In this document: piece after piece, positions 7,447 to 63,065 of the stretch | Layout of the letters: the number at the start of each line of letters is the position of its first letter | Numbering within the stretch: position 1 is the first letter of the stretch | Program-made: the position numbers and the translations under genes | DNA from: Phocaeicola faecium | GTDB taxonomy: Bacteria; Bacteroidota; Bacteroidia; Bacteroidales; Bacteroidaceae | Length of the DNA: 64,000 nucleotides | Assembly (NCBI RefSeq): GCF_014837055.1 | Contig: NZ_JACSPQ010000010.1 | Span: 1 to 64,000 of the forward strand | Reading direction: 5' to 3' | The notes under the pieces: model-generated | What the model saw: only the letters and a program-made list of their open reading frames with translations | The model's database searches: none | Told to the model about the DNA's origin: nothing

Positions 7447-7508
7447 AACGCTACCGTATATGTTCCCCAACGCTACCGTATATGTTCATCAACGCATCCG
7501 TATATGTT
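7447..7508. repeat. 22-bp-period modular array A (3 units)
   Basis: Three 18-mers at 7447, 7469 and 7491: AACGCTACCGTATATGTT twice and AACGCATCCGTATATGTT, with 4-bp linkers CCCC and CATC. Each unit parses as 7-4-7 (for example AACGCTA-CCGT-ATATGTT). It lies in the 342-bp gap (7348-7689) between the divergent GH20 pair and the hybrid regulator. Just before it an AAGCC/GGCTT hairpin (7417-7432) is visible. The rest of the gap is AT-rich with no gene. Confidence 0.85.
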
Positions 7509-7689
7509 TTGCAGGTTCTGCTTAGGCTTTGAATGTGCTGTAATCAGAGGCGCAAATTGTAACCATAGGCAAATGTAAAGAATAAAACTTAAACAGCGAA
7601 ACAAAATCACATTATTTAGGAGATGAACTTTGATAAGCCGTCCTTTTTTCCGACATTTGCATGAGAATTATAATCAAGAAAGAACTTGC

Positions 7690-10600
7690 ATGAGAAAAAT
7701 AGTTATCCTGTTATTTAGCTTGATAGTTTCTTTCGTATCTGTTCAGGCTCAAATTTTTAAGTATCTCGGAACAGACGAAGGGCTTAGTAGTCGGCGGGTG
7801 TTATCTGTCAGACAAACAGAGCAAAGCTATATGTGGATACTGACTCATAAAGGGGTAGACCGTTACGACGGTAAGCGGTTTATCCATTATAACTTGCAGA
7901 AAGACGGGCGGACGGTTAATTTTTATCCCAACCTGAATTCACTGAAAACCGATAGCAAGAACAGGCTGTGGGAGATAGGGAAAGACGGGTTGGCGTTTTG
8001 TTTCGACCGGATGAAAAATCAGTTTCAGTTGAAGTTTTACTTGCGCGATTCGTTTCCGGAAACTCGGAAGAAGCCGGTTACCGCGATATATCTTGACAAG
8101 CAGGATAATATTTGGTTTTGTGTCGACAATCAGCAGTACATTTACCGTTGCAGCGAAAACCGCAGTGTCAGGCTTGAGCGTTCTGTGCCGGGTAAGGTAA
8201 TCAGCATTACGCAGGCAAGCGACGATTTGTTTTACATGGCTACCGAGTATCAGCTGTATGCGGTTCGTCTTCAAGGAGGTGCGTTAAGCGATGTGCAGGT
8301 TATTGATTTGAAGAATATCAGCCGGATTAATTACATCTATTATCATGCTTCTTCCGGACAGCTTGTTGTCAATACGCTTTTGGATAAGCTGTTTATTTAT
8401 CATCCGCAGACCCGTGACTTGGTAAGCATGGGCAATACGATGGAAGACATCGGGGTTAATGCCATTATACCTTGTCGGAAAAATAAAGACGAAATACTGA
8501 TAGCCACCGATGGCGATGGTGTTTATAAACTTAATGTTCCGCGCCGTAAGCTGGGACATTTCTTGCAGGAAGATAATAAGCAGTCTAACAAGATGAACGG
8601 AAGCATCATCGAAGATATTTACATTGATTATGCTGATCGGATTTGGATTGCCATTTATCCGATGGGGATTACTGTCTATAACGAGAAATATCCGAGCTAC
8701 GAGTGGGTGAAACATTCGCCTAATTATACCAATTCGTTGGTAAACAACAGCATTAACGGAATCATAGAAGATTCGGAAGGCGATACATGGTATGCTACGG
8801 ATAACGGAGTGAGCTGTTACAATCCGCGTACGAACCGGTGGACGAACTATTGTTCTTCATTCAAAGACGATTTTTATAGCGATAACCATATCTTTTTTTC
8901 TCTTTGCGAAATCCATCCGGGCATTATTTTGGCAGGAGGATATATGTCGGGCGTTTATCTGATAAACAAACGGACGGGGAAGAGTGTGTTTTATCAGCAG
9001 GAAAGCGACCAGAATAACGAAACGCCCGATAAATACATTCGAAGTATTTATAAGGATGACGAGGGGATTATATGGACCGGAGGAATGTACAGTTTGAAAG
9101 CATACGAGCCGGAGAAACGCCAAAAAGTGGTATATGATATAGGGTATTCTATTAACCAGATAACCCGGCGCGATAGCGTTTCGTTGTGGATTGGCTCGAT
9201 GTACGGAATCTATGTATTCGATAAGACGAGAAAAGAGTTGCGTGCTTTTCATTCTGACATTGATTTTGGATGTATTAATACGATTTATACCCCTGAAGAA
9301 CCTGACGGAAATACAAAAACATATTTTGGAACCTATGGCAACGGTTTGTTTGTGGTCGACAATCGGACGGGTGAGATCACTCATTATCATACCGAGAACA
9401 GTAGCTTGCAAACGAATAACATTTTCAGTATTTTGCCGAACCGTAATGGCGGATTGATGTTAGGTACAGAATTGGGACTGTCTCTTTTCAATGAAACCGA
9501 GGAAACATTTACCTATTGGTCGAAAGAACAAGGGTTGTTGCCTGCCGATTTCAATCCCAATGCAGCCGTACGTACGAGCTATGGCAAACTGATATTTGGC
9601 AGTAATGACGGAGCTATCGTATTGCCCGACAGTGTGAGTCTGCCTGATAAATTTTCAAGTCGGATGGTCTTTTCGAACTTTAGCATAATGTATCGCAGTG
9701 TAATACCCGGCGTAAAAGGTTCTCCTCTCGTCCGTCCGCTGGATGAAACACCTTCTATCGAATTGGGTTATAACCAAAATACCTTCTCGCTGGAAGTTTC
9801 TTCGATTAATTATGACAATCCTTCCAACATCCAGTACAGTTGGAAACTTGAAGGGTTTTACGATGGTTGGACACCGCCGTCAAGCGATGGATTGATACGT
9901 TACACCAACCTTTCTCCGGGGAATTATACGCTGAAAGTACGTTCTATCCTGCAAGATAACCATCTTGTGCTGGAAGAACGTACGATACAAATTATTATCG
10001 GCCGACCGTTCTGGTTAACGTTTTGGGCATTCTTGATTTATGCGGCACTTATTATCGGTGCAACTTATGCGTGGTTCCGGTATCAGGTTATAAAGCGCGA
10101 GCGACGAATTTCTAAAGAAAAAATCAATTTCTTTACCAGCGCAGCGCATGATATCCGTACTCCTTTGACTCTGATTAAAGCTCCTTTGAGCGAAATACAG
10201 CGCAATGAGCATTTAAGTGAACAAGGTAAAGCGAATATCGGGCTGGCGATTCAGAACACGGAAAGTTTGTCTGAACTTGCCGATAATTTGCTGAACTTTC
10301 AAAAAGAAGATGTTTATAGTTCACAAACTATCGTGTCTGAACATGAATTAAACGATTATTTGCGGAAGTATTTGCATCCTTTTAAAGAATACGCTTCACA
10401 AATAGGTATCAGCTTGGCATATAAGAGCGACTTTGAAAACTTGACGGTGTGGATAGACCGGAACAAGATGGATTCGATTATCCGTAATCTGTTATCGAAT
10501 GCTCTGAAATATACTCCACAAGGCGGAAGCATTACAGTTGAAGCATGGCATAATAAGAACCGGTGGTTTCTTTGTGTCTCTGATACAGGAATTGGCATTC

Positions 10601-11703
10601 CGAAAGAGAATCAAAAGAAGTTGTTTAAATATCTGTTCAGAGGAGCGAATGCCACAAACCAGTTGATTGCGGGATGTGGTATCGGTATGCTGCTTACTTA
10701 TCGTCAGATTAAGAACCATGAGGGAAAAATAACGTTCACCAGTACAGAAAAGAAGGGAACAAGTTTTTATCTCAGTTTCCCGATTCATAGCCGGAATTAC
10801 CACTATAAGCCGTCGGGACAAGAAGAAGAAAGCAAAAATGTATTTACCGGACAGATATCCACTTCTCTTTTAGAGGAAGTGGAGGTAGACAATACCCGTC
10901 ATCCCGATGCGCCATTGGTACTTGTGGTAGAAGACAACACGGCTTTGCGCTCTTTCATTTTGCAAAACCTTTCGGAGATATATCGGGTAGTTGGTGTTGA
11001 AAATGGGCAGCGGGCACTTGAAGAGGTAACGAAGCAACAGCCTGATTTGGTTTTGTCTGACGTGATGATGCCCGTAATGGATGGAAAAGAGTTATGCCGC
11101 CGTATCAAGGGAAATATGGAAACCAGTCACATACCGGTTATATTGCTGACTGCATTGGGAAGCCGTGAGCAGATATTGCAGGGCTTGGAGATAAAAGCAG
11201 ACCAATACATCGTAAAACCTTTCGATATGAAAGTGCTGGAAGCGACCATTCACACGGTTCTTGAAAACCGTAACCTGATTCGGATGCGGTACAGACAGGC
11301 GATAGACCATTTGGAAGATGAGGCTATGGAAGCTGTGCCTCCGGTTTCTGCGGGGTTGGATGATGAGTTCATGCAGCGGGTAACGGCTTTGGTTAAAGAA
11401 AAGTTAGGCAACGACCTTACGGTAGATACGCTTTGTGCTGCTGTCAATATGAGTCGGACCAGCTTCTATAACAAGATGAAAGCTCTTACCGGAATCGCAC
11501 CGAATGACTTTATACGGAATATCCGTATGAAAGAAGCCGCTTATCTGTTAAAAACACACCGGTATACGATTGCGGAAATAGCCGACCGTGTGGGGTTTGC
11601 TGACCCGAAGTATTTTACAGATGCGTTCAAGAAATTTTACGGTGTGCCGCCCAGCGTATATATGAAACAGGATATTAATCATACAACACGAACTGACTTA
11701 TGA
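7690..11703 (+). CDS. hybrid two-component system sensor/regulator (HTCS)
   Basis: 1337 aa from ATG 7690 (MRKIVILLF..., clean Sec signal to VQAQ). An upstream ATG at 7630 would add 20 residues and spoil the signal. Order: periplasmic two-bladed regulator propeller (about residues 20-680), Y_Y_Y domain, membrane segment (about 775-797), histidine kinase with H820 in HDIRTPLTL, N-box NLLSNALKYTP and DTGIGIP, receiver with D1124 in DVMMPVMDG, AraC-type HTH at the C-terminus. It senses a glycan fragment in the periplasm and binds DNA directly. The G2 box reads CGIGML rather than GxGIGL. No SusC/D nearby; the likely target is the divergent GH20 pair. Its stop overlaps the next start (ATGA). Confidence 0.95.
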   Translation: MRKIVILLFSLIVSFVSVQAQIFKYLGTDEGLSSRRVLSVRQTEQSYMWILTHKGVDRYDGKRFIHYNLQKDGRTVNFYPNLNSLKTDSKNRLWEIGKDGLAFCFDRMKNQFQLKFYLRDSFPETRKKPVTAIYLDKQDNIWFCVDNQQYIYRCSENRSVRLERSVPGKVISITQASDDLFYMATEYQLYAVRLQGGALSDVQVIDLKNISRINYIYYHASSGQLVVNTLLDKLFIYHPQTRDLVSMGNTMEDIGVNAIIPCRKNKDEILIATDGDGVYKLNVPRRKLGHFLQEDNKQSNKMNGSIIEDIYIDYADRIWIAIYPMGITVYNEKYPSYEWVKHSPNYTNSLVNNSINGIIEDSEGDTWYATDNGVSCYNPRTNRWTNYCSSFKDDFYSDNHIFFSLCEIHPGIILAGGYMSGVYLINKRTGKSVFYQQESDQNNETPDKYIRSIYKDDEGIIWTGGMYSLKAYEPEKRQKVVYDIGYSINQITRRDSVSLWIGSMYGIYVFDKTRKELRAFHSDIDFGCINTIYTPEEPDGNTKTYFGTYGNGLFVVDNRTGEITHYHTENSSLQTNNIFSILPNRNGGLMLGTELGLSLFNETEETFTYWSKEQGLLPADFNPNAAVRTSYGKLIFGSNDGAIVLPDSVSLPDKFSSRMVFSNFSIMYRSVIPGVKGSPLVRPLDETPSIELGYNQNTFSLEVSSINYDNPSNIQYSWKLEGFYDGWTPPSSDGLIRYTNLSPGNYTLKVRSILQDNHLVLEERTIQIIIGRPFWLTFWAFLIYAALIIGATYAWFRYQVIKRERRISKEKINFFTSAAHDIRTPLTLIKAPLSEIQRNEHLSEQGKANIGLAIQNTESLSELADNLLNFQKEDVYSSQTIVSEHELNDYLRKYLHPFKEYASQIGISLAYKSDFENLTVWIDRNKMDSIIRNLLSNALKYTPQGGSITVEAWHNKNRWFLCVSDTGIGIPKENQKKLFKYLFRGANATNQLIAGCGIGMLLTYRQIKNHEGKITFTSTEKKGTSFYLSFPIHSRNYHYKPSGQEEESKNVFTGQISTSLLEEVEVDNTRHPDAPLVLVVEDNTALRSFILQNLSEIYRVVGVENGQRALEEVTKQQPDLVLSDVMMPVMDGKELCRRIKGNMETSHIPVILLTALGSREQILQGLEIKADQYIVKPFDMKVLEATIHTVLENRNLIRMRYRQAIDHLEDEAMEAVPPVSAGLDDEFMQRVTALVKEKLGNDLTVDTLCAAVNMSRTSFYNKMKALTGIAPNDFIRNIRMKEAAYLLKTHRYTIAEIADRVGFADPKYFTDAFKKFYGVPPSVYMKQDINHTTRTDL

Positions 11704-12266
11704 ATTTTTACATCAAATCGTTTCTAATCTTCAGCCGCATCGGGTTGTTTACCATCGGTGGAGGATATGCAATGGTTCCACTGATAGAGGCAGACCTTGT
11801 CGACAAGCGGAAATGGATTAGCAAAGAAGATTTTCTCGATTTAATGGCTTTGGCGCAAACTGTTCCGGGGATATTTGCTGTCAATATCGCCATTTTCATC
11901 GGTTATAAGATACGTGGATTTTGGGGAGCTTTCTGGATGGCACTGGGAACAGTGCTTCCTTCGTTTGTCATTATGTTGCTCATTGCCCTCTTCTTTCGTC
12001 AACTCCAACATTTGGATACGGTTGAGCGTATCTTTAAAGGGATTCGTCCTGCCGTGGTGGCACTGATAGCCGCTCCTACTTTTAAAATGGCAAAGTCGGC
12101 ACGCATCAGCCGCTACAACATTTGGATTCCGGTTGTTTCTGCCTTGTTTATCTGGTTGTTGGGATTTTCGCCTATCTACGTAATCATTCTTTCCGGATTG
12201 GGAGGTTACCTGTATGGGGTGTATGAGAAAAAACAAAAAGCTAAGAAAGGAGAAGAAAAGCAATGA
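11700..12266 (+). CDS. chromate transporter family, half-size subunit 1
   Basis: 188 aa integral membrane protein of the CHR family (about 5-6 helices). Family signature at the N-terminus: FSRIGLFTIGGGYAMVPLI, then DFLDLMALAQTVPGIFAVNIAIFIGYKIRG. Short CHR proteins work as pairs encoded by adjacent genes, and the next gene is the partner. Its ATG overlaps the stop of the sensor gene by 4 bases, which implies translational coupling. Known members export chromate by exchange; in gut Bacteroidetes the real substrate is not established. Confidence 0.88.
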   Translation: MNFYIKSFLIFSRIGLFTIGGGYAMVPLIEADLVDKRKWISKEDFLDLMALAQTVPGIFAVNIAIFIGYKIRGFWGAFWMALGTVLPSFVIMLLIALFFRQLQHLDTVERIFKGIRPAVVALIAAPTFKMAKSARISRYNIWIPVVSALFIWLLGFSPIYVIILSGLGGYLYGVYEKKQKAKKGEEKQ

Positions 12267-12829
12267 TACTGTTTTTACAATTATTTTATACGTTTTTTAA
12301 AATCGGACTTTTTGGTTTTGGCGGAGGATACGCCATGCTTTCTATGATTCAGGGCGAAGTGGTAACCCGTTACGGGTGGCTTTCCACATCCGAATTTACA
12401 GATATCGTTGCGCTCAGCCAAATGACTCCGGGGCCTATCGGTATCAATTCGGCTACTTATGTGGGATACACGGCTGTTGTGAATGCCGGATATTCTCATG
12501 CAGTAGGTGTTATCGGGTCTGTCATCACAACCTTGTCGGTCGTGCTCCCGTCTTTTATTTTGATGATTGTAATCAGCCGTTTCTTCCTGAAGTTTCAGAA
12601 ACATCCGGCGGTAGAGGCCGTGTTTCGCGGACTGCGCCCCGGCGTGGTAGGCTTGCTTGCCGCCGCTGCTTTGGTATTGATGAACGGAGAGAATTTCGGA
12701 ACGGATACGTATCAGATTGTTATCAGTTCTTTGCTCTTCATCGGGGTTTTCATCGCTTCTTACCGCTATAAGGTTAACCCGATAATGCTGATTGTGATTT
12801 GTGGGGTGTTAGGTTACGCCTTTTATTGA
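12263..12829 (+). CDS. chromate transporter family, half-size subunit 2
   Basis: 188 aa partner of the preceding gene with the same fold in the opposite expected topology. Motifs: FKIGLFGFGGGYAMLSMIQ and DIVALSQMTPGPIGINSATYVGY, close to the conserved PGP region of CHR proteins. ATGA overlap with its partner and a strong hairpin terminator 42 bp downstream mark the end of the transcript. Substrate is uncertain; sulfate/chromate-like oxyanion is the family expectation. Confidence 0.88.
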   Translation: MILFLQLFYTFFKIGLFGFGGGYAMLSMIQGEVVTRYGWLSTSEFTDIVALSQMTPGPIGINSATYVGYTAVVNAGYSHAVGVIGSVITTLSVVLPSFILMIVISRFFLKFQKHPAVEAVFRGLRPGVVGLLAAAALVLMNGENFGTDTYQIVISSLLFIGVFIASYRYKVNPIMLIVICGVLGYAFY

Positions 12830-12870
12830 ATTGCGCCGGTTTTACCAGCATGACAATGGTGATATGAAAA

Positions 12871-12912
12871 GCCCCTGCACACCCGTCTGTAAACAAAGCG
12901 GTGTGTAGGGGC
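12871..12912. terminator. hairpin terminator, probably bidirectional
   Basis: Arms GCCCCTGCACACC (12871-12883) and GGTGTGTAGGGGC (12900-12912) pair along 13 bases with one G-T wobble. An A-run lies before and a T-containing run after. It separates the chromate transporter pair (plus) from the thioesterase gene (minus), which converge here. Confidence 0.8.
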
Positions 12913-12943
12913 TTCTCTCATTTTTCGGTCGCCCTAATTTCCG

Positions 12944-13354
12944 TTATTCCAATGAATCAACGTCCAATTCTTCACTCTTCCGATAGCCTGTACTGGTCAG
13001 TACGGCAACCAAAAGCTGTTCTTCATCTACGATTCTCACTTCGATAAACGGAGCGCGGGCATGATTGAATGTTTCGAATGCCTCGGCGTAAACATACCCT
13101 TCGCGCGCCGGGCGCAAGAAAGTAATGTTGGCATTCAAGGAAAGTGTCAGTTTCTGATGGCTGTTTGCCACAGCGGCAAAAGCTAAATCGGCTAACGTAA
13201 ACAAAGCTCCGCCCTGACATACGCCTCCTGCGTTCAGGTGGTTTTGCGTGATGAGCATACGTGCTTTCGCATATCCCGGCTGGATTTCCAGCAATTCTAC
13301 TCCGGCGTTAACCGCAAAGCGGTCGTTCGCCAACATTTCTTTCAGTGTTCCCAT
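12944..13354 (-). CDS. PaaI-type hotdog-fold thioesterase
   Basis: 136 aa from ATG 13354 (MGTLKEML). A start 13 codons upstream would overlap the preceding gene by 35 bases, whereas this start lies 4 bases after its stop. Hotdog fold with the PaaI signature HLNAGGVCQGGALFTLADLAFAAVAN and later ITFLRPAREGYVYAEA. It hydrolyses acyl-CoA or aryl-CoA thioesters in the cytoplasm. Translationally coupled to the Smr/DUF2027 gene, though a functional link is not evident. Confidence 0.88.
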   Translation of the reverse strand: MGTLKEMLANDRFAVNAGVELLEIQPGYAKARMLITQNHLNAGGVCQGGALFTLADLAFAAVANSHQKLTLSLNANITFLRPAREGYVYAEAFETFNHARAPFIEVRIVDEEQLLVAVLTSTGYRKSEELDVDSLE

Positions 13355-13358
13355 AGGT

Positions 13359-14411
13359 TTAGTGAATAGTAACCATTGTCGCTCCGAAACCATATTCGCG
13401 GAACGAAGCGTCTTGACTTTGGTAAGTTTTATATTTGCGTTTCAGTTCATCTAAAATAGCCCGTCGCAATACGCCGTCGCCCTTTCCGTGGATGAACACA
13501 ATCCGCTGTCCCTTGCGGTTTTTATATTCGTCGAGCGTTTTGCGGAATACATCCAACTGGTAGTTGAGCATTTCGGCGTTTCCCATTCCGGTGGTATCGT
13601 CTAACAGCTCATTGATATGTAAATCTACCTCTACGATGTCGTTTTTCATTGCTTTCGGCTGAGGCTGTTTCCGGGGAGCGGCAGGTACGCTTTTCTGCAA
13701 CAGCGCTTCTTTAATGTCTTCAGCCGAGACAAACACCTGTTTCGGGCTTTCGTCGTCTTTTACGATGTCGTAAATTAACGCCGGTTCATTGAAGAAATCG
13801 GAAGGCTGGAAAGTGTGCAGTTTATAAAACTTCACCGTGTCGATGCGTATTTCTTGGCTTACAGCCGGCTTGAGCTGGAAACTGCGGTCGTCTTTATAAG
13901 CCACTAATTGGACTGCTACGCGCTCCATTTCGTTCAGGTTAGCCTTTTCAAACTCTTCGAGGTGCATTTTCATGTTCGGCTTTACCGTGCCCCGGCTGCG
14001 CAATGTCCAGTTTTTCCCTTCTGCCGCCAGATACAGAAAATCAATAAAATAATTGCTGTCGTTTATCAGGTAAGCATCAAAGGCTGTGATGGATATTGCT
14101 TTAGCGTCTTGCGGAACGTAAGCCAGAAAGACATTCAGCACGTCATTTCCCCGAATCTCAGGCGCACGGTAAGTGATGGGTTTGTCATCTTCTTCCTCTT
14201 CTTCCGTTTCGGGAGCCACCTGCACCGGTTTCGATGTCGTTTTCAGCGGGATATTGTAATCGTCTGTTTCTATCACGACACATTCGCGTATGAGCATGGG
14301 TATTTCGAATCCGTCTTCATCTTCTACCAGCGCAATGTCTTTTCCCTGAAAGCCTTTCACTACGCCGCCTCCTACTTCGCTTAAAAAGCGGACTTTATCT
14401 CCTATTTTCAT
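13359..14411 (-). CDS. DUF2027 domain and Smr domain protein
   Basis: 350 aa cytoplasmic protein. N-terminal beta-rich segment ([21 protein letters not shown]..., to about residue 50) resembles a small KOW/SH3-like fold. The middle part is the Bacteroidetes-specific DUF2027 region. The C-terminal Smr domain, about residues 265-350, carries DLHINELL and [22 protein letters not shown], the HGKG loop being the Smr nuclease/nucleic-acid-binding signature. Smr domains occur in MutS2 and as stand-alone endonucleases acting on DNA or RNA; here MutS2 ATPase parts are absent. The -7 box TACATTTG is at 14440-14447. Confidence 0.88.
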
Positions 14412-14439
14412 TGTCTCTTATCTTTAATTGATTGAGTTA

Positions 14440-14447
14440 CAAATGTA
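14440..14447 (-). promoter_or_regulatory. -7 box of the DUF2027/Smr gene
   Basis: Minus strand TACATTTG fits TAnnTTTG and lies about 28 bp before the start codon. Array B begins about 97 bp further upstream. No clear -33 element. Confidence 0.5.
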
Positions 14448-14543
14448 AAAAGTTTCCGGTAAAAAAGAAAACATTGACCTTATTTATACTTTCTTTCCTT
14501 ACGAAAAAAAGAAGGGGAAATAGTCAGCCGATATATCCTGAAA

Positions 14544-14627
14544 AACGCTAACGGTAGCGTGGGGCATTCCATGCGGTAGTGTTGACCGATTCTATTCGGA
14601 AGACTGACCGGTTCTACCGTTAGTGTT
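14544..14627. repeat. 22-bp-period modular array B (4 units)
   Basis: Four 18-mers at 14544, 14566, 14588 and 14610: AACGCTAACGGTAGCGTG, ATTCCATGCGGTAGTGTT, GATTCTATTCGGAAGACT and GGTTCTACCGTTAGTGTT, with linkers GGGC, GACC, GACC. It lies between potD (3' side) and the DUF2027 promoter, in the gap 14412-14701. A GGCTTG...CAAGG motif follows at 14658-14672. Confidence 0.87.
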
Positions 14628-14701
14628 TTTGACGTTTACGGCTAAGAGGTAAAAGGCTTGAAACAAGGCGGTTATGCGTATTCATGTTTCATCCCGTTTT
14701 T

Positions 14702-17662: not shown

Positions 17663-19051
17663 TTATACAATAACACGGATGTCTTGGGGGCGGATGGTGA
17701 TACCCACACGGTCGGAATCGTCCCACACATCGTTCGTGTCAACAAAAACGTTTTCATCCCAGTCTGATAGCACGGTCAGGTGATAATGATTCCCCTTGTA
17801 AAGGATAAACTTCACTTCGCCCGTCAACATTCCGTCTTCGGCATCGTCTTGCAGGATAACCTTGTCGAAGTCTACCTCTATGCGCACCGGTTGTCCGTTT
17901 TCCGGAATCTTTTCAGACGGTATGGGAGCACATTCAAATTCACATCCCAAGAATTCTACGTGGGTGGCGTCTTTTACTTTTCCTTCGAACACATTGCAAG
18001 TACGCTCTTTCTTCATAATATGGATATCGAACGGCTTGACGAGCAGTCCCACTTCGCTGCCCACCTCGAACGCATGATAATCTTGAACGATAATCTCATA
18101 GTCGGCACACATCACTGCCATTTCGTAATGAACACCCTTGAAGATGCACGACTGTACCACGCCGCGCAGTTGTGCCCGGTCTGATACGGGGAATATGTAT
18201 AAATCTTCCGGGCGGATAACCACATCCACCGGAGCGTTCTCGCCGAAACCTTCATCGACACACTCAAACTCTTGTCCGCAGAACCTAACCAGCTTGTCTT
18301 TCACCATTGTACCGTTCAGGATGTTGCTTTCGCCGATAAAATCTGCTACAAATGCATTGATAGGCTCGTTGTAAATATCGGTAGGCGTACCGATTTGTTG
18401 TATTTTTCCTTCGCTCATTACTACGATGGTGTCGCTCAGCGTAAGCGCTTCCTCTTGGTCGTGGGTGACATAAACAAAGGTGATTCCCAGCCGTTTGTGC
18501 ATCTCTTTCAGCTCCATCTGCATGTCTTTCCGCATCTTGAGGTCGAGCGCAGCCAGCGGTTCGTCGAGCAGTAACACCTCTGGCTCGTTGACGATGGCAC
18601 GCGCTATCGCCACCCGTTGCTGCTGTCCGCCCGAAAGCGAGTCCACATCGCGATACTCGTAGTCCGTCATTCCCACCATTTTCAATGCAGCTTTCACCTT
18701 GCGCGTCATGTCTTGCTTGGGCATCTTTTTCAGTTTCAGCCCGAAAGCAATGTTGTCGTACACGTTCAGATGAGGGAACAAGGCATATTTTTGAAAGACC
18801 GTATTGACCGGCCGCCTGTGGGGAGGCGTTTGGGTTATTTCTTTTCCGCTGATACAGATGTTCCCTTCCGATGCGGTTTGAAATCCGGCAATCAGTCGCA
18901 ACAACGTTGTTTTTCCACATCCCGACGGCCCCAATATCGTTACAAACTCCCCTTTGCGGATGGAAAGATTGATGTGGTCTAAAGCTGTTTTGTCACCAAA
19001 AAACTTAGATACGTTGTTTATTTCAATGATTGTTTTGTTATCGTTTTGCAT
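17663..19051 (-). CDS. potA: spermidine/putrescine ABC transporter ATPase with extended C-terminus
   Basis: 462 aa from ATG 19049-19051 ([20 protein letters not shown]); upstream sequence has no good start. Nucleotide-binding domain: Walker [10 protein letters not shown], signature [14 protein letters not shown], Walker [13 protein letters not shown]-loop THDQEEA. E. coli PotA is about 378 aa; the extra length here is a second TOBE/OB-like copy. The segments ending KPFDIHIM and RPQDIRVIV, each preceded by a GxHYxxxV-type strand ([20 protein letters not shown]), look like an internal duplication. First gene of potABCD, divergent from cmk. The -7 TATCTTTG is at 19071-19078 minus. Confidence 0.93.
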
Positions 19052-19070
19052 GTCTTTTGAAAATTGTGCG

Positions 19071-19078
19071 CAAAGATA
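19071..19078 (-). promoter_or_regulatory. -7 box of the potABCD operon
   Basis: Minus strand TATCTTTG, 19 bp before the potA ATG, fits TAnnTTTG. It supports the ATG at 19051 over longer starts, because those would lie upstream of the box. Confidence 0.6.
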
Positions 19079-19160
19079 CATATATAATGTTACAGCGGTA
19101 AATGTTTGGGCAAATAAATTGCGTGGAACGCTTATTCTTATGCCGATGAAACCGGCTTGA

Positions 19161-19244
19161 AACACAAGCCGTAGCGTTAGTAAACACATGCGGTAGTGTG
19201 AACAGGTTTATGCGGTAGTGTTGATGAACACATGCGGTAAAGAA
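19161..19244. repeat. 22-bp-period modular array C (4 units)
   Basis: Four 18-mers at 19161, 19183, 19205 and 19227: AACACAAGCCGTAGCGTT, AACACATGCGGTAGTGTG, GGTTTATGCGGTAGTGTT and AACACATGCGGTAAAGAA, with linkers AGTA, AACA, GATG. It lies centrally between the divergent potA and cmk promoters. A GGCTTG/CAAGCC hairpin (19154-19170) overlaps its left end. Confidence 0.87.
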
Positions 19245-28972: not shown

Positions 28973-29056
28973 TTTTCTATGGGTAGAAACCTCAAGTCCT
29001 TCCCATAGCGTTCCTCCTTTCTACCGCAAGCGTAAGGCAACTTATCCCATAGCGTT
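28973..29056. repeat. 22-bp-period modular array D (4 units)
   Basis: 18-mers at 28973, 28995, 29017 and 29039: TTTTCTATGGGTAGAAAC, AGTCCTTCCCATAGCGTT, CTTTCTACCGCAAGCGTA and AACTTATCCCATAGCGTT, with linkers CTCA, CCTC, AGGC. It sits in the 374-bp gap 28834-29207 between the divergent HTCS and SDR genes. Other items in the gap are the HTCS -7 box and candidate -7 boxes for the SDR at 29113-29120 (TAACTTTG) and 29133-29140 (TAATTTTG). No small gene is evident. Confidence 0.85.
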
Positions 29057-34096: not shown

Positions 34097-34180
34097 AATG
34101 CTATGGGTAGAACCGGTCAACGCTATGGGTAGAAACAGTAAACACTACCGCATGAAACAGGTAACACTAACGGTAGCGTT
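34097..34180. repeat. 22-bp-period modular array E (4 units)
   Basis: 18-mers at 34097, 34119, 34141 and 34163: AATGCTATGGGTAGAACC, AACGCTATGGGTAGAAAC, AACACTACCGCATGAAAC and AACACTAACGGTAGCGTT, with linkers GGTC, AGTA, AGGT. It occupies the middle of the 445-bp gap 33906-34350 between divergent fumarase and fabI. The 3' flank (GATTTCT, then GTTCTCAC) resembles that of array F. Nothing else recognisable in the gap apart from the two promoters. Confidence 0.87.
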
Positions 34181-47431: not shown

Positions 47432-47515
47432 AACCTTTGCGGTAGAACCGGTCGGTTCTCCGAATAGAATTGGTCAACTCTACCGCATGGAATGACCAAC
47501 ACTAACGGTAGCGTT
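47432..47515. repeat. 22-bp-period modular array F (4 units)
   Basis: 18-mers at 47432, 47454, 47476 and 47498: AACCTTTGCGGTAGAACC, GGTTCTCCGAATAGAATT, AACTCTACCGCATGGAAT and AACACTAACGGTAGCGTT, with linkers GGTC, GGTC, GACC. The last unit is identical to the last unit of array E. It lies between convergent genes, so it is not always promoter-proximal. Confidence 0.87.
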
Positions 47516-53342: not shown

Positions 53343-53355
53343 TATCTTTTCTTTT

Positions 53356-57066: not shown

Positions 57067-57089
57067 AGCTGGTTAGTTTTATTTTCGGG

Positions 57090-57097
57090 CAAAGGTA
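57090..57097 (-). promoter_or_regulatory. -7 box of metA
   Basis: Minus strand TACCTTTG, 23 bp before the start. Array G starts about 50 bp upstream. Confidence 0.5.
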
Positions 57098-57148
57098 ATA
57101 AATTTGTTGCCTCGATACCACGCACCTTCCTTAAAAAGTCGTTGAAAA

Positions 57149-57232
57149 AATTCTACCGTATATGTTGGTCAACACATACGTATGCGTTAACCAACATATA
57201 CGGTTGCGTAATGGTGCGCTATGGGTAGAATT
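57149..57232. repeat. 22-bp-period modular array G (4 units)
   Basis: 18-mers at 57149, 57171, 57193 and 57215: AATTCTACCGTATATGTT, AACACATACGTATGCGTT, AACATATACGGTTGCGTA and TGCGCTATGGGTAGAATT, with linkers GGTC, AACC, ATGG. Between the MATE stop and the metA promoter. Confidence 0.87.
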
Positions 57233-57242
57233 TTAGCCTTTG

Positions 57243-58604
57243 CTAATTGGTTGATTCTCTTGGCACTTTCAGCGAGTTTAAAACCGGTATGGCAACGGGG
57301 AGAGCAAACAGGAACGAACACAAGTCTGCTACGGCCTGACTCATTTCCACTCCTTGTAAGCCCAAGAAGCAGGGCAGTATCAGAATGGCGGGAATGAAGA
57401 ACAATCCCTGACGTGCCGAAGCCAGCAATACGGCACGTACCGGGCGGCGGATGGTTTGCAGCAACATGTTGCAAAGAATGACCCACGTGCCCAGCGGCAG
57501 GGTGATGAGTTGCCAGCGCAAAGCCTGCGTTCCTACGGCTGTTACTTCAGGGTCTCCCTTACGGAACCACTCTACGATTTCGGGAGCATAGATATAGCCG
57601 ATGACGGAACATACCGTCAGAAAAACCACGCCAATCTTTACGCAGAACCAAAATCCCTGACGCACACGGGGATAAATGCCTGCTCCGTAGTTATAGCCGC
57701 AAACGGGTTGGAAGCCTTGTCCGAAACCGATAAGAAACGAGTTGATAAACATGCAAACGCGGGTTACGATAGACATACCGGCAATGGCGGCATCGCCGTA
57801 AGCCCCCGCAGCTACATTGAGCAAGATGGTGGCGACGCTCGACAGCCCCTGACGGCACAGCGAGGGACTTCCTCCGTAAACTATTTCTTTCAGCATGGCA
57901 GGGCGCGGAGTGAAATTGCGCAAACGGATGCGGATGTTTTCTCCCCGGCTGTCCATGTAAATCAGAATACTGAAACTGCATACCTGACTGATAAGTGTGG
58001 CCCACGCCGCACCCGCAATGCCCATATCGAAAACAAAAATCAGCAATGGGTCAAGTCCGATGTTCAATACGGCGCCTACCATAATCCCTATCATGGCATA
58101 CACCGCATTTCCCTGAAAACGCATCTGGTTGTTCAGTACCAGCGAAGAAGCCATGAAAGGTGCTCCCAGCAGGATGATGCCCAGATACGTTTCGGCATAG
58201 GGCAGAATCGTGTCGGTAGAACCTAACGCCCGGCAAATAGGACTTAAGAATATCAATCCAAGCAGCGTAATGATGCCTCCTACGATGAAGGCGCAGAAGA
58301 ATCCCGTCGATGCCATCTTTTCGGCACTCTGGTAATCGCGTGCGCCCAACTTGCGGGAAATATAGTTGCCCGACCCGTGTCCGAAAAAGAAACCGAATGC
58401 CTGAATTATCGCCATGATAGAAAACGAAATACCTACCGCCGCCGTTGCCTGCGTATTGATTTTCCCCACGAAATAAGTGTCTGCCATGACGTAGAACGAA
58501 GTAATCAACATGCTGATAATCGTAGGAATAGCAAGCGAACCGATGAGGCGCGGAACGGGCGCCGTGGTCATTTCTGTATACTTATCTTTATATTTCCGTT
58601 TCAT
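57243..58604 (-). CDS. MATE family efflux transporter
   Basis: 453 aa from ATG 58602-58604 (MKRKYKDKYTEMTTAPVPRLIGSLAIPTIISML). Twelve hydrophobic helices in two similar halves; family landmarks YVMADTYFVGKI, GFFFGHGSGNYISRKLGARD and GFGQGFQPVCGYNYGAG. Sodium- or proton-driven export of cationic drugs or metabolites. Substrate unknown. -7 TACTTTTG at 58657-58664 minus. Confidence 0.93.
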   Translation of the reverse strand: MKRKYKDKYTEMTTAPVPRLIGSLAIPTIISMLITSFYVMADTYFVGKINTQATAAVGISFSIMAIIQAFGFFFGHGSGNYISRKLGARDYQSAEKMASTGFFCAFIVGGIITLLGLIFLSPICRALGSTDTILPYAETYLGIILLGAPFMASSLVLNNQMRFQGNAVYAMIGIMVGAVLNIGLDPLLIFVFDMGIAGAAWATLISQVCSFSILIYMDSRGENIRIRLRNFTPRPAMLKEIVYGGSPSLCRQGLSSVATILLNVAAGAYGDAAIAGMSIVTRVCMFINSFLIGFGQGFQPVCGYNYGAGIYPRVRQGFWFCVKIGVVFLTVCSVIGYIYAPEIVEWFRKGDPEVTAVGTQALRWQLITLPLGTWVILCNMLLQTIRRPVRAVLLASARQGLFFIPAILILPCFLGLQGVEMSQAVADLCSFLFALPVAIPVLNSLKVPRESTN

Positions 58605-58656
58605 AAGCACAGTAGTATTTTAAGCAAGCGTCGTCGGCTTGTATCGAAAAGCGATA

Positions 58657-58664
58657 CAAAAGTA
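58657..58664 (-). promoter_or_regulatory. -7 box of the MATE gene
   Basis: Minus strand TACTTTTG, 52 bp before the start. Confidence 0.45.
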
Positions 58665-58716
58665 GGAAAAAAAGATAAATTAAGACACCTATCGTTCTTT
58701 TTTCCTCATAATTACG

Positions 58717-58724
58717 TATCTTTG
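58717..58724 (+). promoter_or_regulatory. -7 box of glyS
   Basis: TATCTTTG, 52 bp before the glyS ATG, followed by GCGCCCG; fits TAnnTTTG. Confidence 0.55.
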
Positions 58725-58776
58725 CGCCCGTACTATACAAAAAGTTAATTGACAAGGTATAAAAAATAAATAAACA

Positions 58777-60318
58777 ATGGCACAAGAAGACGTTTTTAAG
58801 AAGTTAGTTTCACACTGCAAAGAATATGGTTTTGTTTTTCCATCAAGTGAAATATACGATGGACTGGGCGCTGTATACGACTACGGACAGAACGGCGTGG
58901 AACTGAAAAACAATATCAAGCAATATTGGTGGCAGAGCATGGTGTTGCTCCATGAAAACATTGTGGGCATCGACTCAGCCATATTCATGCACCCTACTAT
59001 TTGGAAAGCATCCGGACACGTGGACGCCTTCAATGACCCGTTGATTGATAACCGCGACTCGAAGAAACGTTATCGTGCCGATGTATTAATCGAAGACCAA
59101 ATCGCCAAGTACGACGAAAAGATAAATAAAGAGGTGGCAAAGGCAGCCAAGAAGTTTGGCGACGCTTTCGATGAACAGCAGTTCCGCTCTACGAATGCCC
59201 GCGTATTGGAGCATCAGGCTAAGCGCGACGCATTGCATGAACGTTACTCAAAGGCAATGAATGCCAACGACCTGAATGAGTTGCGTCAGATTATATTGGA
59301 TGAAGAAATCGTTTGTCCTATCTCCGGCACAAAGAACTGGACCGAGGTACGTCAGTTCAATCTGATGTTCTCTACCGAAATGGGTTCTACGGCAGACGGC
59401 GCAATGAAAGTTTATCTTCGTCCGGAAACCGCTCAGGGTATTTTCGTAAATTACCTGAACGTGCAGAAGACCGGCCGTATGAAAATACCGTTCGGTATCG
59501 CTCAAATCGGTAAGGCATTCCGTAATGAAATCGTAGCGCGCCAGTTTATCTTCCGTATGCGTGAGTTCGAACAAATGGAAATGCAGTTCTTCGTAAAACC
59601 CGGAACCGAACTCGACTGGTTTAAGAAATGGAAAGAAATCCGCCTGAAATGGCACAAGGCATTGGGCTTCGGCGATGACCACTACCGTTATCATGACCAT
59701 GAAAAACTGGCTCACTATGCCAATGCTGCTACCGACATCGAATTCCTGATGCCGTTCGGATTCAAGGAAGTAGAAGGTATCCATAGCCGTACAAACTTTG
59801 ACTTGAGCCAGCATGAGAAGTTCTCAGGCAAGAGCATTAAGTATTTCGACCCGGAAATCAACGAATCATATACTCCGTATGTCATCGAAACCTCTATCGG
59901 GGTTGACCGTATGTTCCTCAGCGTAATGAGTGCGGCATACTGCGAAGAGAAACTGGAAAACGGCGAAACTCGCGTAGTCTTGAAGTTGCCTGCCGCCCTT
60001 GCTCCGGTGAAATTGGCAGTCATGCCATTGGTGAAAAAAGACGGACTGCCCGAAAAAGCACGTGAAATCATGAACGACTTGAAGTTCCACTTCCACTGCC
60101 AGTACGATGAGAAAGACAGTATCGGTAAACGTTACCGCCGTCAGGACGCCATCGGTACTCCGTACTGTATAACAATCGACCATCAGACATTGGAAGATAA
60201 TTGCGTTACGCTGCGTAACCGCGATACGATGGAACAGGAACGGGTGGCAATCTCTGAATTGAATAACATCATTGCAGATAAGGTAAGCATTACAAGTTTG
60301 CTGAAAACGCTGCAATAA
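58777..60318 (+). CDS. glyS: glycyl-tRNA synthetase, single-chain dimeric type
   Basis: 513 aa class II synthetase of the alpha2 (archaeal/eukaryote-like) kind. GFVFPSSEIYDGLGAVYDYGQNG start, motif 2 FRNEIVARQFIFRMREFEQMEMQFFV, motif 3 TSIGVDRMFLSVMSAAY, then the anticodon-binding domain (LAVMPLVKKDGLPEKAREIMNDL). The region between motif 1 and 2 carries DPLIDNRDSKKRYRAD. Followed 14 bp later by the FKBP lipoprotein. Confidence 0.95.
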   Translation: MAQEDVFKKLVSHCKEYGFVFPSSEIYDGLGAVYDYGQNGVELKNNIKQYWWQSMVLLHENIVGIDSAIFMHPTIWKASGHVDAFNDPLIDNRDSKKRYRADVLIEDQIAKYDEKINKEVAKAAKKFGDAFDEQQFRSTNARVLEHQAKRDALHERYSKAMNANDLNELRQIILDEEIVCPISGTKNWTEVRQFNLMFSTEMGSTADGAMKVYLRPETAQGIFVNYLNVQKTGRMKIPFGIAQIGKAFRNEIVARQFIFRMREFEQMEMQFFVKPGTELDWFKKWKEIRLKWHKALGFGDDHYRYHDHEKLAHYANAATDIEFLMPFGFKEVEGIHSRTNFDLSQHEKFSGKSIKYFDPEINESYTPYVIETSIGVDRMFLSVMSAAYCEEKLENGETRVVLKLPAALAPVKLAVMPLVKKDGLPEKAREIMNDLKFHFHCQYDEKDSIGKRYRRQDAIGTPYCITIDHQTLEDNCVTLRNRDTMEQERVAISELNNIIADKVSITSLLKTLQ

Positions 60319-60332
60319 TTAAAGAATAACGC

Positions 60333-61010
60333 ATGAATAAAAACATTCTTTGGCTGATTGTCGTATTGGTTTCATTATCGTTCGGCTTTGCTTCGTGTGC
60401 AGAAGATACACAGGTTGAAGATCCGTACGCTAATTGGCAGGCGCGCAATGAGCATTATTTGGATTCGATTGTAGATGTAGCTCGTGCCAACGCAGACGGG
60501 AGATGGTATTGTGTGCAGAATTGGAAAATCTGGAACGACGGAATGGCAGGAACTGGTGGTATCGTTTTTGATGATAATTTCGATATGACCGATTCTGTGT
60601 ATGTTCATTTCCGTAGCGAGCCGGTTGCTGCAGGAAGTGCCCCGCTGTATACCGACAGTATAACTACTTATTATAGGGGAAGCCTGATAAACGGAGAACA
60701 GTTTGACAGTAACTATCAGGGCGATTGGGACGATGTGCAGACCCCGCAAATCTATACTCCGAGAGGATTCTTGGTGAGTGGATTGATAACAGGGTGGCAG
60801 ACGGCTCTGATGGCTTCTCACGACGGTTCTTATCCGGGGATGAAGCCGGGCGATAACGTAGATATCTACATCCCGTATCAGTTAGGTTATGGTGCCAGCG
60901 GATATCTGGATATTCGCGGATATTCCGTGCTGAGTTTCCACATGAAGTTAGTCAGCGTAACCCATCCGGAAGGACCGGATGACAGAAGTTTGATGTCTGA
61001 AATCGAATAG
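60333..61010 (+). CDS. FKBP-type peptidyl-prolyl isomerase lipoprotein
   Basis: 225 aa. Lipobox at FASC near residue 22. C-terminal FKBP domain: TTYYRGSLINGEQFDSNYQ, FLVSGLITGWQTALMASH, MKPGDNVDIYIPYQLGYG and SVLSFHMKLVSV. Catalyses proline isomerisation or chaperones envelope proteins in the periplasm. Probably cotranscribed with glyS; the next gene starts 22 bp after its stop. Confidence 0.9.
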   Translation: MNKNILWLIVVLVSLSFGFASCAEDTQVEDPYANWQARNEHYLDSIVDVARANADGRWYCVQNWKIWNDGMAGTGGIVFDDNFDMTDSVYVHFRSEPVAAGSAPLYTDSITTYYRGSLINGEQFDSNYQGDWDDVQTPQIYTPRGFLVSGLITGWQTALMASHDGSYPGMKPGDNVDIYIPYQLGYGASGYLDIRGYSVLSFHMKLVSVTHPEGPDDRSLMSEIE

Positions 61011-61032
61011 AACAATAAAACCTGATGAGGAA

Positions 61033-61446
61033 ATGCAACATCGCTTCCGTACATACTGTATGTTGGTAGTCAGCATAGTCGTGCTGATAGCGGGTGCATT
61101 TCCTCATCATCATCACGAAGAACGGTTCTGTTTAAACACAGATTTGACGAGCTGTACTTCTCCGCTCACAGCGGAAAACGAAACCCATTATCCGGGCGAT
61201 ACCGACAGTCATGCGTGTAAAACCACGTGTGTTACTCATTTCTCTTTCTCTTCTCCGAGTAATCGCCCTTTCGATTTTACTCCCGACTATACATTCTATT
61301 TCCTTACTTACCCGTTACTGGACGTGTTAGAACAGGTTCTGTCGTCCGGAGTATCGGCTAAGCATGTCTTTTATTATATCGAGCGCCTTCACGGATTGTA
61401 TTGCGTTACAGTCCGGAGCCTTCGTGCGCCTCCCGCATTGTCATAA
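61033..61446 (+). CDS. His/Cys-rich small membrane protein preceding metal-efflux genes
   Basis: 137 aa. One N-terminal helix (TYCMLVVSIVVLIAGAFPHHHHEERFCLN) followed by a His cluster and Cys residues (FCLNTDLTSC, HACKTTCVTH). Similar small proteins stand before CusB/CzcB genes in Bacteroides (I recall the name DUF6769, not verified). The cluster suggests metal binding, perhaps copper or zinc handling next to the efflux system. Function not established. Confidence 0.72.
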   Translation: MQHRFRTYCMLVVSIVVLIAGAFPHHHHEERFCLNTDLTSCTSPLTAENETHYPGDTDSHACKTTCVTHFSFSSPSNRPFDFTPDYTFYFLTYPLLDVLEQVLSSGVSAKHVFYYIERLHGLYCVTVRSLRAPPALS

Positions 61447-61463
61447 GTTTAAAGGGTTGCAGT

Positions 61464-61662
61464 CTTAGAAACTGTTTTGAATTTATCGTGCGATGATTTG
61501 GAATGAGTTTTTGAGGCATTTCCGATTGTGTGATGAGGAAGATAGCGGGCTATCTGACGAAGAACAGAAGCGGAAAGAACCAAAAAATCGCCCAAAGCAC
61601 ACACGAAAACGAATGCATCAAGCCAAGAAAACTTTTTGGAGAAATTCAAAACAGTTTCTTAG
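61464..61662. mobile_element. MITE-like element with 21-bp terminal inverted repeats
   Basis: 199 bp. The left end CTTAGAAACTGTTTTGAATT (20 of 21 bases shown) at 61464-61484 and the right end 61642-61662, its complement with one mismatch, bracket the element. The interior is also self-complementary: TTTCCG (61518-61523) with CGGAAA (61571-61576), and a central GATAGC/GCTATC pair. No transposase is encoded. It lies in the 352-bp gap between the His/Cys-rich protein and the adaptor. No clear target-site duplication is visible. Confidence 0.7.
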
Positions 61663-61681
61663 TAAAAGGTCGTATTCATGT

Positions 61682-61705
61682 TTCGTTCCGTAAAACCGGA
61701 ACGAA
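61682..61705. terminator. short hairpin downstream of the MITE
   Basis: TTCGTTCCG (61682-61690) pairs perfectly with CGGAACGAA (61697-61705) around TAAAAC. It may terminate transcripts coming from the His/Cys-rich gene, though no T-run follows directly. Confidence 0.45.
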
Positions 61706-61743
61706 GCGTGTTCTCACCTTTGTTTTTCTCCGGCAATCACATT

Positions 61744-61777
61744 GCAACCCGGTTGCCAAAAATAAGACATACTTTTG
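61744..61777 (+). promoter_or_regulatory. promoter of the adaptor gene with palindrome
   Basis: TACTTTTG (-7, 61770-61777), 21 bp before the ATG. The palindrome GCAACC-C-GGTTGC (61744-61756) covers the expected -33 region and could be an operator for a metal-responsive regulator (inference). Confidence 0.45.
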
Positions 61778-61798
61778 CATTATTAAAACACCAAACTT

Positions 61799-62938
61799 AT
61801 GAAGAAATATCTTTTTATGGGGACAGCGTTATTGTTCCTGTGCGGAGCATGTACGCAACAACACAACCACGAAGCGGAAGAAGCAGCCCATGAAGCAGAA
61901 AGTCATGGCGGACATTCCGATGAAATTATTTTGACTCCCGAAAAAGCAAAAGCGGCGGGAGTGATGGTAGAAACCGTTACTCCGGGAACATTCCGGGAAG
62001 TAATACCCACCAGCGGACAGGTATTGGCAGCTCAGGGAGACGAGAATACGCTGGTAGCTGCTACGGCAGGCGTGGTTTCTTTTTCGAGAACCGTTACCGA
62101 GGGAATGTCCGTAGGTCGGGATGTGGAACTGCTGAGCGTATCGGCAGAGAACTTGCAGGACGGCGACCCGGTGAAGCGCGCACGCATCGCTTACGAACGG
62201 GCGAAGGGAGAATACGAACGTGCGGAAAAACTCATTGGCGAACGTATCGTGTCGGAAAAAGAATTTAATGTATTGAAAGAAAATTATGAGAATGCACGCA
62301 TTGCTTACGAGGCACTTTCGCCGAGCAAGGCAGGTAAGGGCGTGGCGGTGAAGTCGCCGATGGCAGGTTACGTCAAGGCATGTTTCGTAAAAGAAGGCGA
62401 CTATGTTACGGTAGGGCAACCGCTGCTTAGCGTTACCCAAACCCGTCGGCTCATGCTGCGTGCCGAAGTGTCGGAGCGTTATTATTCAAGACTGCATAAC
62501 ATTGCTTCGGCCAATTTCCAGACACCATACGATGACAAAGTGTACAGTCTTGCCGACCTGAAAGGACGTTTGCTCTCATTCGGAAAGTCTTCGGATGGCA
62601 CGTCGTATTACGTTCCCGTAACCTTCGAGTTCGACAACCGTGGCGATGTGATACCCGGTTCGTTTGTCGAGGTGTATCTGCTGGCATCCGAGCGGCAGAA
62701 CGTGCTCAGCGTCCCCGTGTCGGCACTCACCGAAGAACAAGGTCTGTACTTCATCTATTGCCAGATTGACGAGGAGTGTTACCGCAAGCAGGAAGTAACC
62801 GTAGGGGCAAACGACGGCAAGCGGGTGGAAATCTTATCCGGACTGAAAGGAGGCGAAAAGGTTGTAACGCAGGGAGCTATCCATGTCAAATTAGCTTCGG
62901 CTTCGACAGCCATTCCGGGACATACACATAATCATTAA
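61799..62938 (+). CDS. RND efflux periplasmic adaptor (CusB/CzcB type)
   Basis: 379 aa lipoprotein (LLFLCGAC lipobox near residue 18). His-rich N-terminus (HNHEAEEAAHEAESHGGHSDE) and a His-containing tail (PGHTHNH) suit metal transfer. Lipoyl/barrel-sandwich parts around GVVSFSRTVTEGMSVGRD and VKSPMAGYVKACFVKEGDYVTVGQPLLSVTQ with a short alpha-hairpin between; membrane-proximal domain at the end (VEILSGLKGGEKVVTQGA). Links the RND pump in the inner membrane to an outer-membrane channel. The pump gene follows after 245 bp; the outer-membrane component is not in the window. Confidence 0.9.
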   Translation: MKKYLFMGTALLFLCGACTQQHNHEAEEAAHEAESHGGHSDEIILTPEKAKAAGVMVETVTPGTFREVIPTSGQVLAAQGDENTLVAATAGVVSFSRTVTEGMSVGRDVELLSVSAENLQDGDPVKRARIAYERAKGEYERAEKLIGERIVSEKEFNVLKENYENARIAYEALSPSKAGKGVAVKSPMAGYVKACFVKEGDYVTVGQPLLSVTQTRRLMLRAEVSERYYSRLHNIASANFQTPYDDKVYSLADLKGRLLSFGKSSDGTSYYVPVTFEFDNRGDVIPGSFVEVYLLASERQNVLSVPVSALTEEQGLYFIYCQIDEECYRKQEVTVGANDGKRVEILSGLKGGEKVVTQGAIHVKLASASTAIPGHTHNH

Positions 62939-63003
62939 GAACTTGTCTTAACGGTGCGGTTTGTTTTTCGGAAGGCGGAAAAACGCTTCGGCTTGTGTTA
63001 TTT

Positions 63004-63065
63004 GTTTCATGCGGATAAACCGTCCGGTTCTATTCGGAGAGTGGACTCGTCTTTCGAATAGAATT
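63004..63065. repeat. 22-bp-period modular array H (3 units)
   Basis: 18-mers at 63004, 63026 and 63048: GTTTCATGCGGATAAACC, GGTTCTATTCGGAGAGTG and CGTCTTTCGAATAGAATT, with linkers GTCC, GACT. It sits inside an apparent operon, between the adaptor and the RND pump. Confidence 0.8.

Follow-up and report, generated by a model that had tools for sequence, protein, structure and literature searches.

Dispersed intergenic arrays of phased 22-bp bricks in Phocaeicola faecium and their candidate role in docking a dimeric DNA-binding protein

Results

Phased four-unit arrays are abundant in the P. faecium genome

The first 64,000 nucleotides of contig NZ_JACSPQ010000010.1 of Phocaeicola faecium (NCBI RefSeq assembly GCF_014837055.1; G000:C2:1-64000, hereafter the window), part of a genome of 3,484,903 bases in 65 contigs, carry eight arrays of short dyad units, almost entirely between genes. 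The unit, which we call a brick, is an 18-bp degenerate dyad with the consensus AAYNCTACCGGTAGNRTT in this species, followed by a 4-bp linker; its positions 6-7 and 12-13 require an A or a T while leaving free which of the two, and this is compatible with a protein site. A first-pass annotation of the window, made from the letters alone, had described eight arrays of 7-4-7 units with 4-bp linkers, and the positions and layout were all borne out, except that the last array begins at 62982 and not at 63004, its first unit (62982-62999) having been overlooked. The total is 31 units rather than 30, with four units in seven arrays, as had been claimed for most of them, and three in one. A CG in every centre does not hold up (TGGG and CCCA have none), and the statement that no array lies in a gene is nearly right: the array at 19161 runs into the 5' end of the longest form of an open reading frame (ORF; Table 1), in which the ABC domain does not start before residue 70.

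The arrays are genuine and occur far more often than chance would allow. In a survey of 1.264 Mb (C1:1-800000, C4:1-300000, C5:1-100000 and the window), a symmetric 18-bp unit profile trained on the arrays themselves returned 120 four-unit positions above the calling threshold of 18 bits at a spacing of 22 bp, and none at spacings of 18-21 or 23-27 bp or in a shuffled copy. True four-unit arrays of 84 bp make up 119 of these positions; the remaining one, C1:211383, is a three-unit array, as are the window array at 7447 and C4:167535, the three clear cases of this kind. At a strict unit threshold, runs of four were found in 100 of 110 arrays and runs of three in nine, several of them with a weak fourth unit, and the single run of five looks spurious. 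The bare pattern CWWNNNNWWG occurs three times in succession 113 times at spacing 22 and never at six other spacings, and CTANCGGTAGNGTT, with at most one mismatch, has 392 matches in the whole genome as opposed to 13 for the reversed control. Scaled up from the 122 arrays of the surveyed 1.264 Mb, the whole genome would contain an extrapolated total of about 330. Neither of the outcomes that the first-pass annotation had named as speaking against its pattern, an equal frequency in shuffled sequence or an absence from the rest of the genome, was found: the shuffled copy holds no array and matches lie on many contigs. A word-independent dyad scan at threshold 22 gave 28 clusters at spacing 22 (nine in the shuffled copy) and 5-11 at other spacings, too weak a signal to stand alone.

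Array placement was read with a crude gene caller, under which 14% of the DNA is non-coding. On this basis 114 of the 120 arrays lie outside genes and six overlap a called ORF, and 106 of the 304 gaps of at least 150 bp contain an array. Among 110 arrays with classifiable neighbours, tandem genes flank 63, divergent genes 29 and convergent genes 18, proportions that come near those of the intergenic length as a whole (65%, 21% and 14%, respectively); for the class B arrays defined below, 9 of 34 are in convergent gaps. The orientation of the class A arrays relative to tandem genes is random (23 the same, 24 opposite). No link to promoters or to gene orientation was seen in the gap-type counts or in class A orientation, and the suggested placement upstream of TAnnTTTG promoters finds no support in gap types so near the background, the motif itself not having been scanned for. 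Two stretches of C1, 306.8-418.3 kb and 474-543.5 kb, are free of arrays and have a G+C fraction of 0.42 vs 0.45; the first is unlikely to be so by chance (0.0035), the second not (0.14). Seven proteins scanned in the first include one with DUF4138, which we take to be TraN of conjugative transposons, the others being ordinary; three scanned in the second are a transposase and two proteins with Fic domains, one of which also carries BRO-N.

A homologous class retains its core while its arms erode

Class A comprises the cores that score above 60 bits with a position-specific profile (n = 80). Their words follow roughly the order AACGCTA-CCCR-TAGAACC / TGGG / CCGC-ATG / AACACTA-ACGG-TAGCGTT, and their mean pairwise identity is 0.68 (computed on 81 cores, one of which was later removed as a three-unit array). 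Class B comprises 39 four-unit arrays built from other words, with no common order and with flanks unrelated by eye. Four of the window arrays (14544, 34097, 47432 and 62982) belong to the one homologous class with its position-specific word order, so the free mixing of words reported at first reading is half right, the other four lying outside that class.

Many class A cores sit within a larger element with imperfect inverted ends (GAGCYTGTTTTAAACTTT), which measures 176-248 bp, mostly 192-202, where both arms are clear. With an arm called when its score exceeded the maximum of 300 random stretches, both arms are present in 11 of the 80 cores, at least one in 45 and none in 35; among lower-scoring cores an arm is kept in 0 of 19. 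The mobile module envisaged in the first-pass annotation is favoured for class A by these arms; no mobilising enzyme was identified, and no target-site duplication is evident among the 11 two-armed elements, whose ends are only roughly placed. The insertion sequence at C1:489191-490549 has no arm-like ends within 300 bp, this being the only one examined and no full search having been made. We also found a 173-bp miniature inverted-repeat transposable element (MITE) with ends TTAGAGCCTGTTTAAATTTT, for example at G000:C1:716451-716624; six exact end pairs lie 156-157 bp apart from start to start and, among the copies read, one is full and three are shorter or altered. Its ends are similar to the arms of class A, so that both may be mobilised by a single transposase.

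Across 39 aligned class A arms we counted 412 substitutions and 108 insertions or deletions (indels). The 80 cores together differ from their consensus by 1517 mismatches without a single indel, although the ratio in the arms predicts about 398. Paired matches of half-core profiles lie at offset 44 (82 pairs) or at offset 22 (16, in a shifted register), and no other offset rises above the threshold; one decayed copy, at C1:741527, has a 1-bp deletion. A genome-wide search with a profile that permits gaps returned 151 matches, which are the best-scoring copies (about 150 of 1548 candidates were scored); in the rows compared the genomic length equals the model span, in a set from which weak indel-bearing copies could be missing. 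With many indels in the arms and almost none in the cores, the spacing and the number of units look to be under selection.

Folding and complementarity of the arrays

No consistent set of columns covarying as Watson-Crick pairs was found across the 80 class A cores, and a common RNA or single-stranded DNA (ssDNA) fold was rejected for class A on this ground and left open for class B. Left and right half-words of a unit are no more complementary than halves shuffled between elements (z -4.6, -2.6, 0.4 and -2.0 in class A; -2.9, -0.6, -0.7 and 0.8 in class B), and the last class A unit (U4) is largely palindromic by consensus (13.3 of 18). Mean fold z was -3.16 in class A, sampled at every second core (40 of 80), and -3.57 in the 39 class B arrays, with about equal strength on both strands; with 10-base flanks, two of the eight window arrays clearly beat their shuffled copies (z -4.7 and -5.3), the rest ranging from 0.1 to -1.5. 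Compared with word-swapped copies, class A cores reach only z -1.7 in folding and 8.68 vs 8.22 in inverted complementarity (spread 0.26).

Bricks resemble one another within class B arrays both directly (z 3.5) and in inverted orientation (z 4.6). Some bricks are paired as perfect 18-bp inverted copies around a 4-base loop, for example at C4:195483 and, in the genome G324 described below, at C20:18180, and pairs matching at 16 or more of 18 positions number seven in class B (0.8 expected), six in the 18 arrays of G324 (1.4) and four in class A (1.6). Mismatches in the best pairs are not clearly rich in G-U (G-T 11, A-C 8 and other 7 in G324; 10, 17 and 35 in class B). We read the class B pattern as that of bricks probably copied from one another in both orientations. 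Rfam gave no match to a window array above its cut-off, the mir-1277 model at 57145-57212 reaching 29.6 vs 81 bits, and apart from it the only structured RNA family encountered in the window was an end-cut tRNA match at positions 1-78 on the minus strand. A tRNA-like cloverleaf on the 7-4 grid was likewise discarded, ARAGORN finding no tRNA in the window and other arrays not folding in this way.

The format recurs in other Bacteroidales with other words

In 35 congeners and 24 further genomes of the order the P. faecium words do not rise above background, and a 21-base pattern made from them has no match in the searched collection of genome contigs. Two profiles were applied, R1 built from the P. 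faecium arrays and R2 from these together with the arrays of G324 and G235, the three genomes matching R2 by construction; a few chance matches are to be expected at the E-values used. R1 matched six genomes besides P. faecium among 393 of the order. R2 matched, besides P. faecium, ten of the 393, two of 395 drawn from the phylum, 12 among 60 of the genus (E 0.01) and, in the P. uenonis genus, 8 of 26 genomes, of which only G224 was read.

The unit consensus in G324 is ATTTCTTCCGGAAGAAAT, and ten loci there hold nine three-unit arrays and one of four with a weak first unit. In 400 kb of this genome we found 10 three-unit arrays, the adjoining units on both sides scoring below 0, whereas a shuffled copy and the other spacings yielded no three-unit array. 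In G235 we read three arrays, of the TTTCAAACGTTTGAAA type, with 4, 3 and 4 units; its pattern count is not raised (26 vs 21 in the control), the arrays are visible only by their 22-bp steps, and the word-independent dyad scan gave nothing clear there. One array in contig G235:C1 (L142) lies about 50 bp from a gene whose product, judged by eye and not by a family scan, resembles an HU-type DNA-binding protein.

Seven of the 12 matching congeners were read (G025, G001, G017, G010, G830, G020 and G837; G033, G026, G829, G002 and G836 were left out). Arrays of the AACTCAT-GCGG-ATGAGTT type in G025, counted in ten stretches picked from the better matches, mostly hold 6 or 7 units, one having five clear units, and several have similar flanks by eye. 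In G001, G010, G017, G020 and G837 the arrays hold 4 or 5 units, and the words of several are near those of the P. faecium class B; G830 and a further G010 locus are doubtful. The possible three-unit array in G830 (L293) adjoins a tyrosine integrase with an arm-binding domain. In 400 kb of a further congener, G027, no clear array was found (best three-unit score 6.6 bits, no R2 match), and one bare-pattern triple at spacing 22 was not inspected. The Glyco_hydro_88 genes beside the G017 (L291) and G001 (L305) arrays are 28% identical. A BNR_4 gene on the other side of the G017 array is 74% identical to a P. faecium relative (C4:16503-17774); a class A array lies 84 bp from this relative, although on the opposite flank of the gene.

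The G224 array loci are identical to Porphyromonas uenonis DSM 23387 over the 300-400 bases compared. Bricks in P. uenonis are of the GTTTCTTCCGTATGAAAC type and number 4-7 per array, counted at a lax unit threshold, with two short arrays of doubtful standing and any array truncated at a locus end omitted. Two strains share one locus, matched through its flanks by eye, at which L262 has 5 bricks and L258 has 6, a difference that might serve as a variable-number marker. Candidatus Parabacteroides intestinigallinarum has four units; G706, from another order of the same class, has five and G221 seven or eight, and both look real. The G172 and G122 matches are weak. Set aside were G408 (G408:C104, L103), a plain tandem repeat of 22-bp period without the dyad word set, and the matches in G058, G078, G117 and G305, not array-like by eye. 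Phage-borne arrays were also rejected: 21 viral contigs match the 18-bp pattern, which we estimate to be about chance for a collection of this size, and the viral unit pair that scores highest at spacing 22 (L206) did not look like an array on inspection. Judged from these genomes, the exact words are species-bound, and other Bacteroidales use the 18+4 format with a vocabulary and unit numbers of their own.

Table 1. Arrays of the window, with coordinates in window numbering.
Feature	Coordinates	Strand	Remarks
Three-unit array	7447..7508	.	not class A; AACGCTA CCGT ATATGTT type, three near-identical units
Four-unit core, class A	14544..14627	-	right arm recognisable past low-coordinate end (about 14475-14543)
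Four-unit array, class B	19161..19244	.	29-bp overlap with 5' end of longest ORF 17663-19189
Four-unit array, class B	28973..29056	.	
Four-unit core, class A	34097..34180	+	weak right arm past 34180
Four-unit core, class A (GCGG-CGAA subtype)	47432..47515	+	right arm past 47515
Four-unit array, class B	57149..57232	.	strong single-strand fold with 10-base flanks (z -5.3)
Four-unit core, class A	62982..63065	-	weak left arm past 63065

Discussion

We propose that the arrays belong to a dispersed brick-type element whose core would act as a phased docking array for a dimeric DNA-binding protein, a reading to which we assign a probability of about 0.45. The element would be a non-coding one of the Bacteroidales, made of 22-bp bricks and, in this species, nearly always of exactly four. 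Its copies would have spread largely through the class A element, which is MITE-like and some 195 bp long, the outer arms decaying after insertion and the 84-bp core being retained. Each brick would be bound by a putative dimeric, sequence-specific protein with a loose half-site (C-W-W beside a C/G-rich middle); the fixed step of about two helical turns would set the dimers on one face of the DNA and allow them to join into one assembly, and a set number of bricks would give an assembly of set size. Such an assembly could play a role in nucleoid organisation or in mobility. The binding-site array that the first-pass annotation had listed among its options draws support of an indirect kind: spacing and number are kept while words drift, unit halves are no more complementary than shuffled ones, and the format is present with other words in other genera.

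Several observations weigh against this reading. No binding protein was identified in the analysis, and the genes that adjoin arrays in other genomes, as named by eye, have nothing in common; a scan of ten proteins beside arrays of five low-copy congeners met one family twice, Glyco_hydro_88. A docking array needs no folding, so the class B excess counts against it: these arrays fold better than word-swapped copies (-27.5 vs -22.2 kcal/mol, z -8.7) and their inverted complementarity is 10.41 vs 7.07 (spread 0.44). The retention of the core is itself open to qualification, in that the core sets were gathered with ungapped profiles, many half-core matches have no partner above threshold and were not each inspected, and the indels counted in the arms hinge on gap costs that were permissive; core scores also drop slightly with arm loss (Spearman 0.22, p 0.05; 95.1 vs 105.6 bits, p 0.03). 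Finally, brick counts vary in P. uenonis (4-7, and 5 vs 6 at the shared locus) and G025 arrays mostly hold 6 or 7, so a fixed number is not general.

The folding excess would be explained if the arrays were chains of foldable hairpins, with 7-base arms and 4-base loops, formed in ssDNA during replication or transposition or in RNA, and acted upon as folds by an enzyme or by the replication machinery. The mean fold z of both classes, the advantage of class B over word-swapped copies, the perfect 18-bp inverted brick pairs with the surplus of pairs at 16 or more of 18, and the largely palindromic last unit of class A all agree with this. We nonetheless hold it to be rather unlikely, because no consistent set of columns covaries in the 80 class A cores, which fold only slightly better than their word-swapped copies, a clear folding advantage over shuffled sequence is seen in only two of the eight arrays of the window, mismatches are not clearly G-U rich and units are not self-complementary beyond shuffled halves; moreover both strands fold alike, orientation is random with respect to genes, and the sole Rfam match at an array is far under its cut-off.

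It could also be argued that what we see is the neutral decay of a MITE that once carried a minisatellite and now has no function, and the homology and inverted-repeat arms of class A, the species restriction of the words, the presence of the 173-bp MITE with a similar end sequence and the varying brick number of P. uenonis would all be expected of it. This we find improbable: cores lack indels of which the arms are full, 35 of the 80 class A cores show no recognisable arm and still retain the format, and the 39 class B arrays have the same format with neither a common order nor arms. Intergenic dyad sites at about two helical turns would equally suit ordinary operators of a transcription factor controlling the neighbouring genes, and a regulator with a degenerate half-site would yield such a vocabulary, but we give little credence to operators in about 330 copies (extrapolated) that occupy 106 of the 304 gaps of at least 150 bp, lie between convergent genes in 18 of 110 cases and, in the window, stand beside scanned genes of mixed function.

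Compared with known systems, the nearest relative is most likely the BrickBuilt MITE, of which the arrays described here would be a variant with a counted, phased and retained core. BrickBuilt MITEs of Porphyromonas gingivalis reportedly consist of a tandem run of ~22-23-bp bricks flanked by a leader and a tail arm, and are intergenic and dispersed. The bricks here are likewise of 22 bp, several G025 arrays have similar flanks by eye, and profile matches occur in 8 of 26 genomes of the P. uenonis genus; arms, with imperfect terminal inverted repeats, are recognisable in part of class A. BrickBuilt is reported to have a variable number of near-identical bricks, which is also what P. uenonis shows, whereas P. 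faecium nearly always has four, divergent or mosaic; P. faecium further differs in its hundreds of copies (extrapolated) and in the third of its arrays that have no detectable common order or arms.

Other families share single traits with these arrays. Repetitive extragenic palindromic (REP) sequences and bacterial interspersed mosaic elements (BIMEs) are short, partly palindromic intergenic repeats, present in hundreds, mosaic and of species-bound copy number, and their REP-associated tyrosine transposases (RAYTs) are Y1 HUH transposases. The arrays resemble them in being short, partly palindromic intergenic repeats in high number, mosaic and with a species-bound copy number, and differ in forming strict 22-bp arrays of nearly fixed number. 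We reject a REP/BIME system with a RAYT: a search for the Y1 transposase (PF01797) had no hit in P. faecium, the control search being positive in 5 of 14 genomes, and the units are no better palindromes than shuffled halves. Neisserial intergenic mosaics also combine short inverted-repeat modules of about 20 bp between genes; their dRS3 is one fairly fixed word alternating with 50-150-bp repeats, whereas here 18-bp words are drawn from a vocabulary and joined by constant 4-bp linkers. Iterons and centromere-like repeats are tandem protein sites with periods of about 11 or 22 bp at an origin or partition site; the period of about 22 bp and the single face are alike, but the arrays here are dispersed over the chromosome. 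An array of clustered regularly interspaced short palindromic repeats (CRISPR) is ruled out by linkers of only 4 bp, as opposed to unique spacers of about 30 bp.

On a wider scale, and tentatively, since we hold it to be a somewhat doubtful generalisation, the arrays may represent an order-wide but patchy class of Bacteroidales elements in which the format is conserved and the words are not: a species-set number of 18-bp dyads at exact 22-bp steps would form a counted docking array for a candidate protein whose architecture stays the same as its specificity drifts, and which in some species would have colonised a third of the larger gaps, perhaps to shape the nucleoid. A repeat that keeps its spacing and number while its letters change is the footprint of a reader. 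Should this reader be found, the hundreds of arrays in P. faecium, the few in most congeners searched and the other words in other genera would constitute a natural experiment, one that would bear on how a DNA-binding system changes together with its genome-wide sites and on how a mobile repeat turns into a chromosomal feature.

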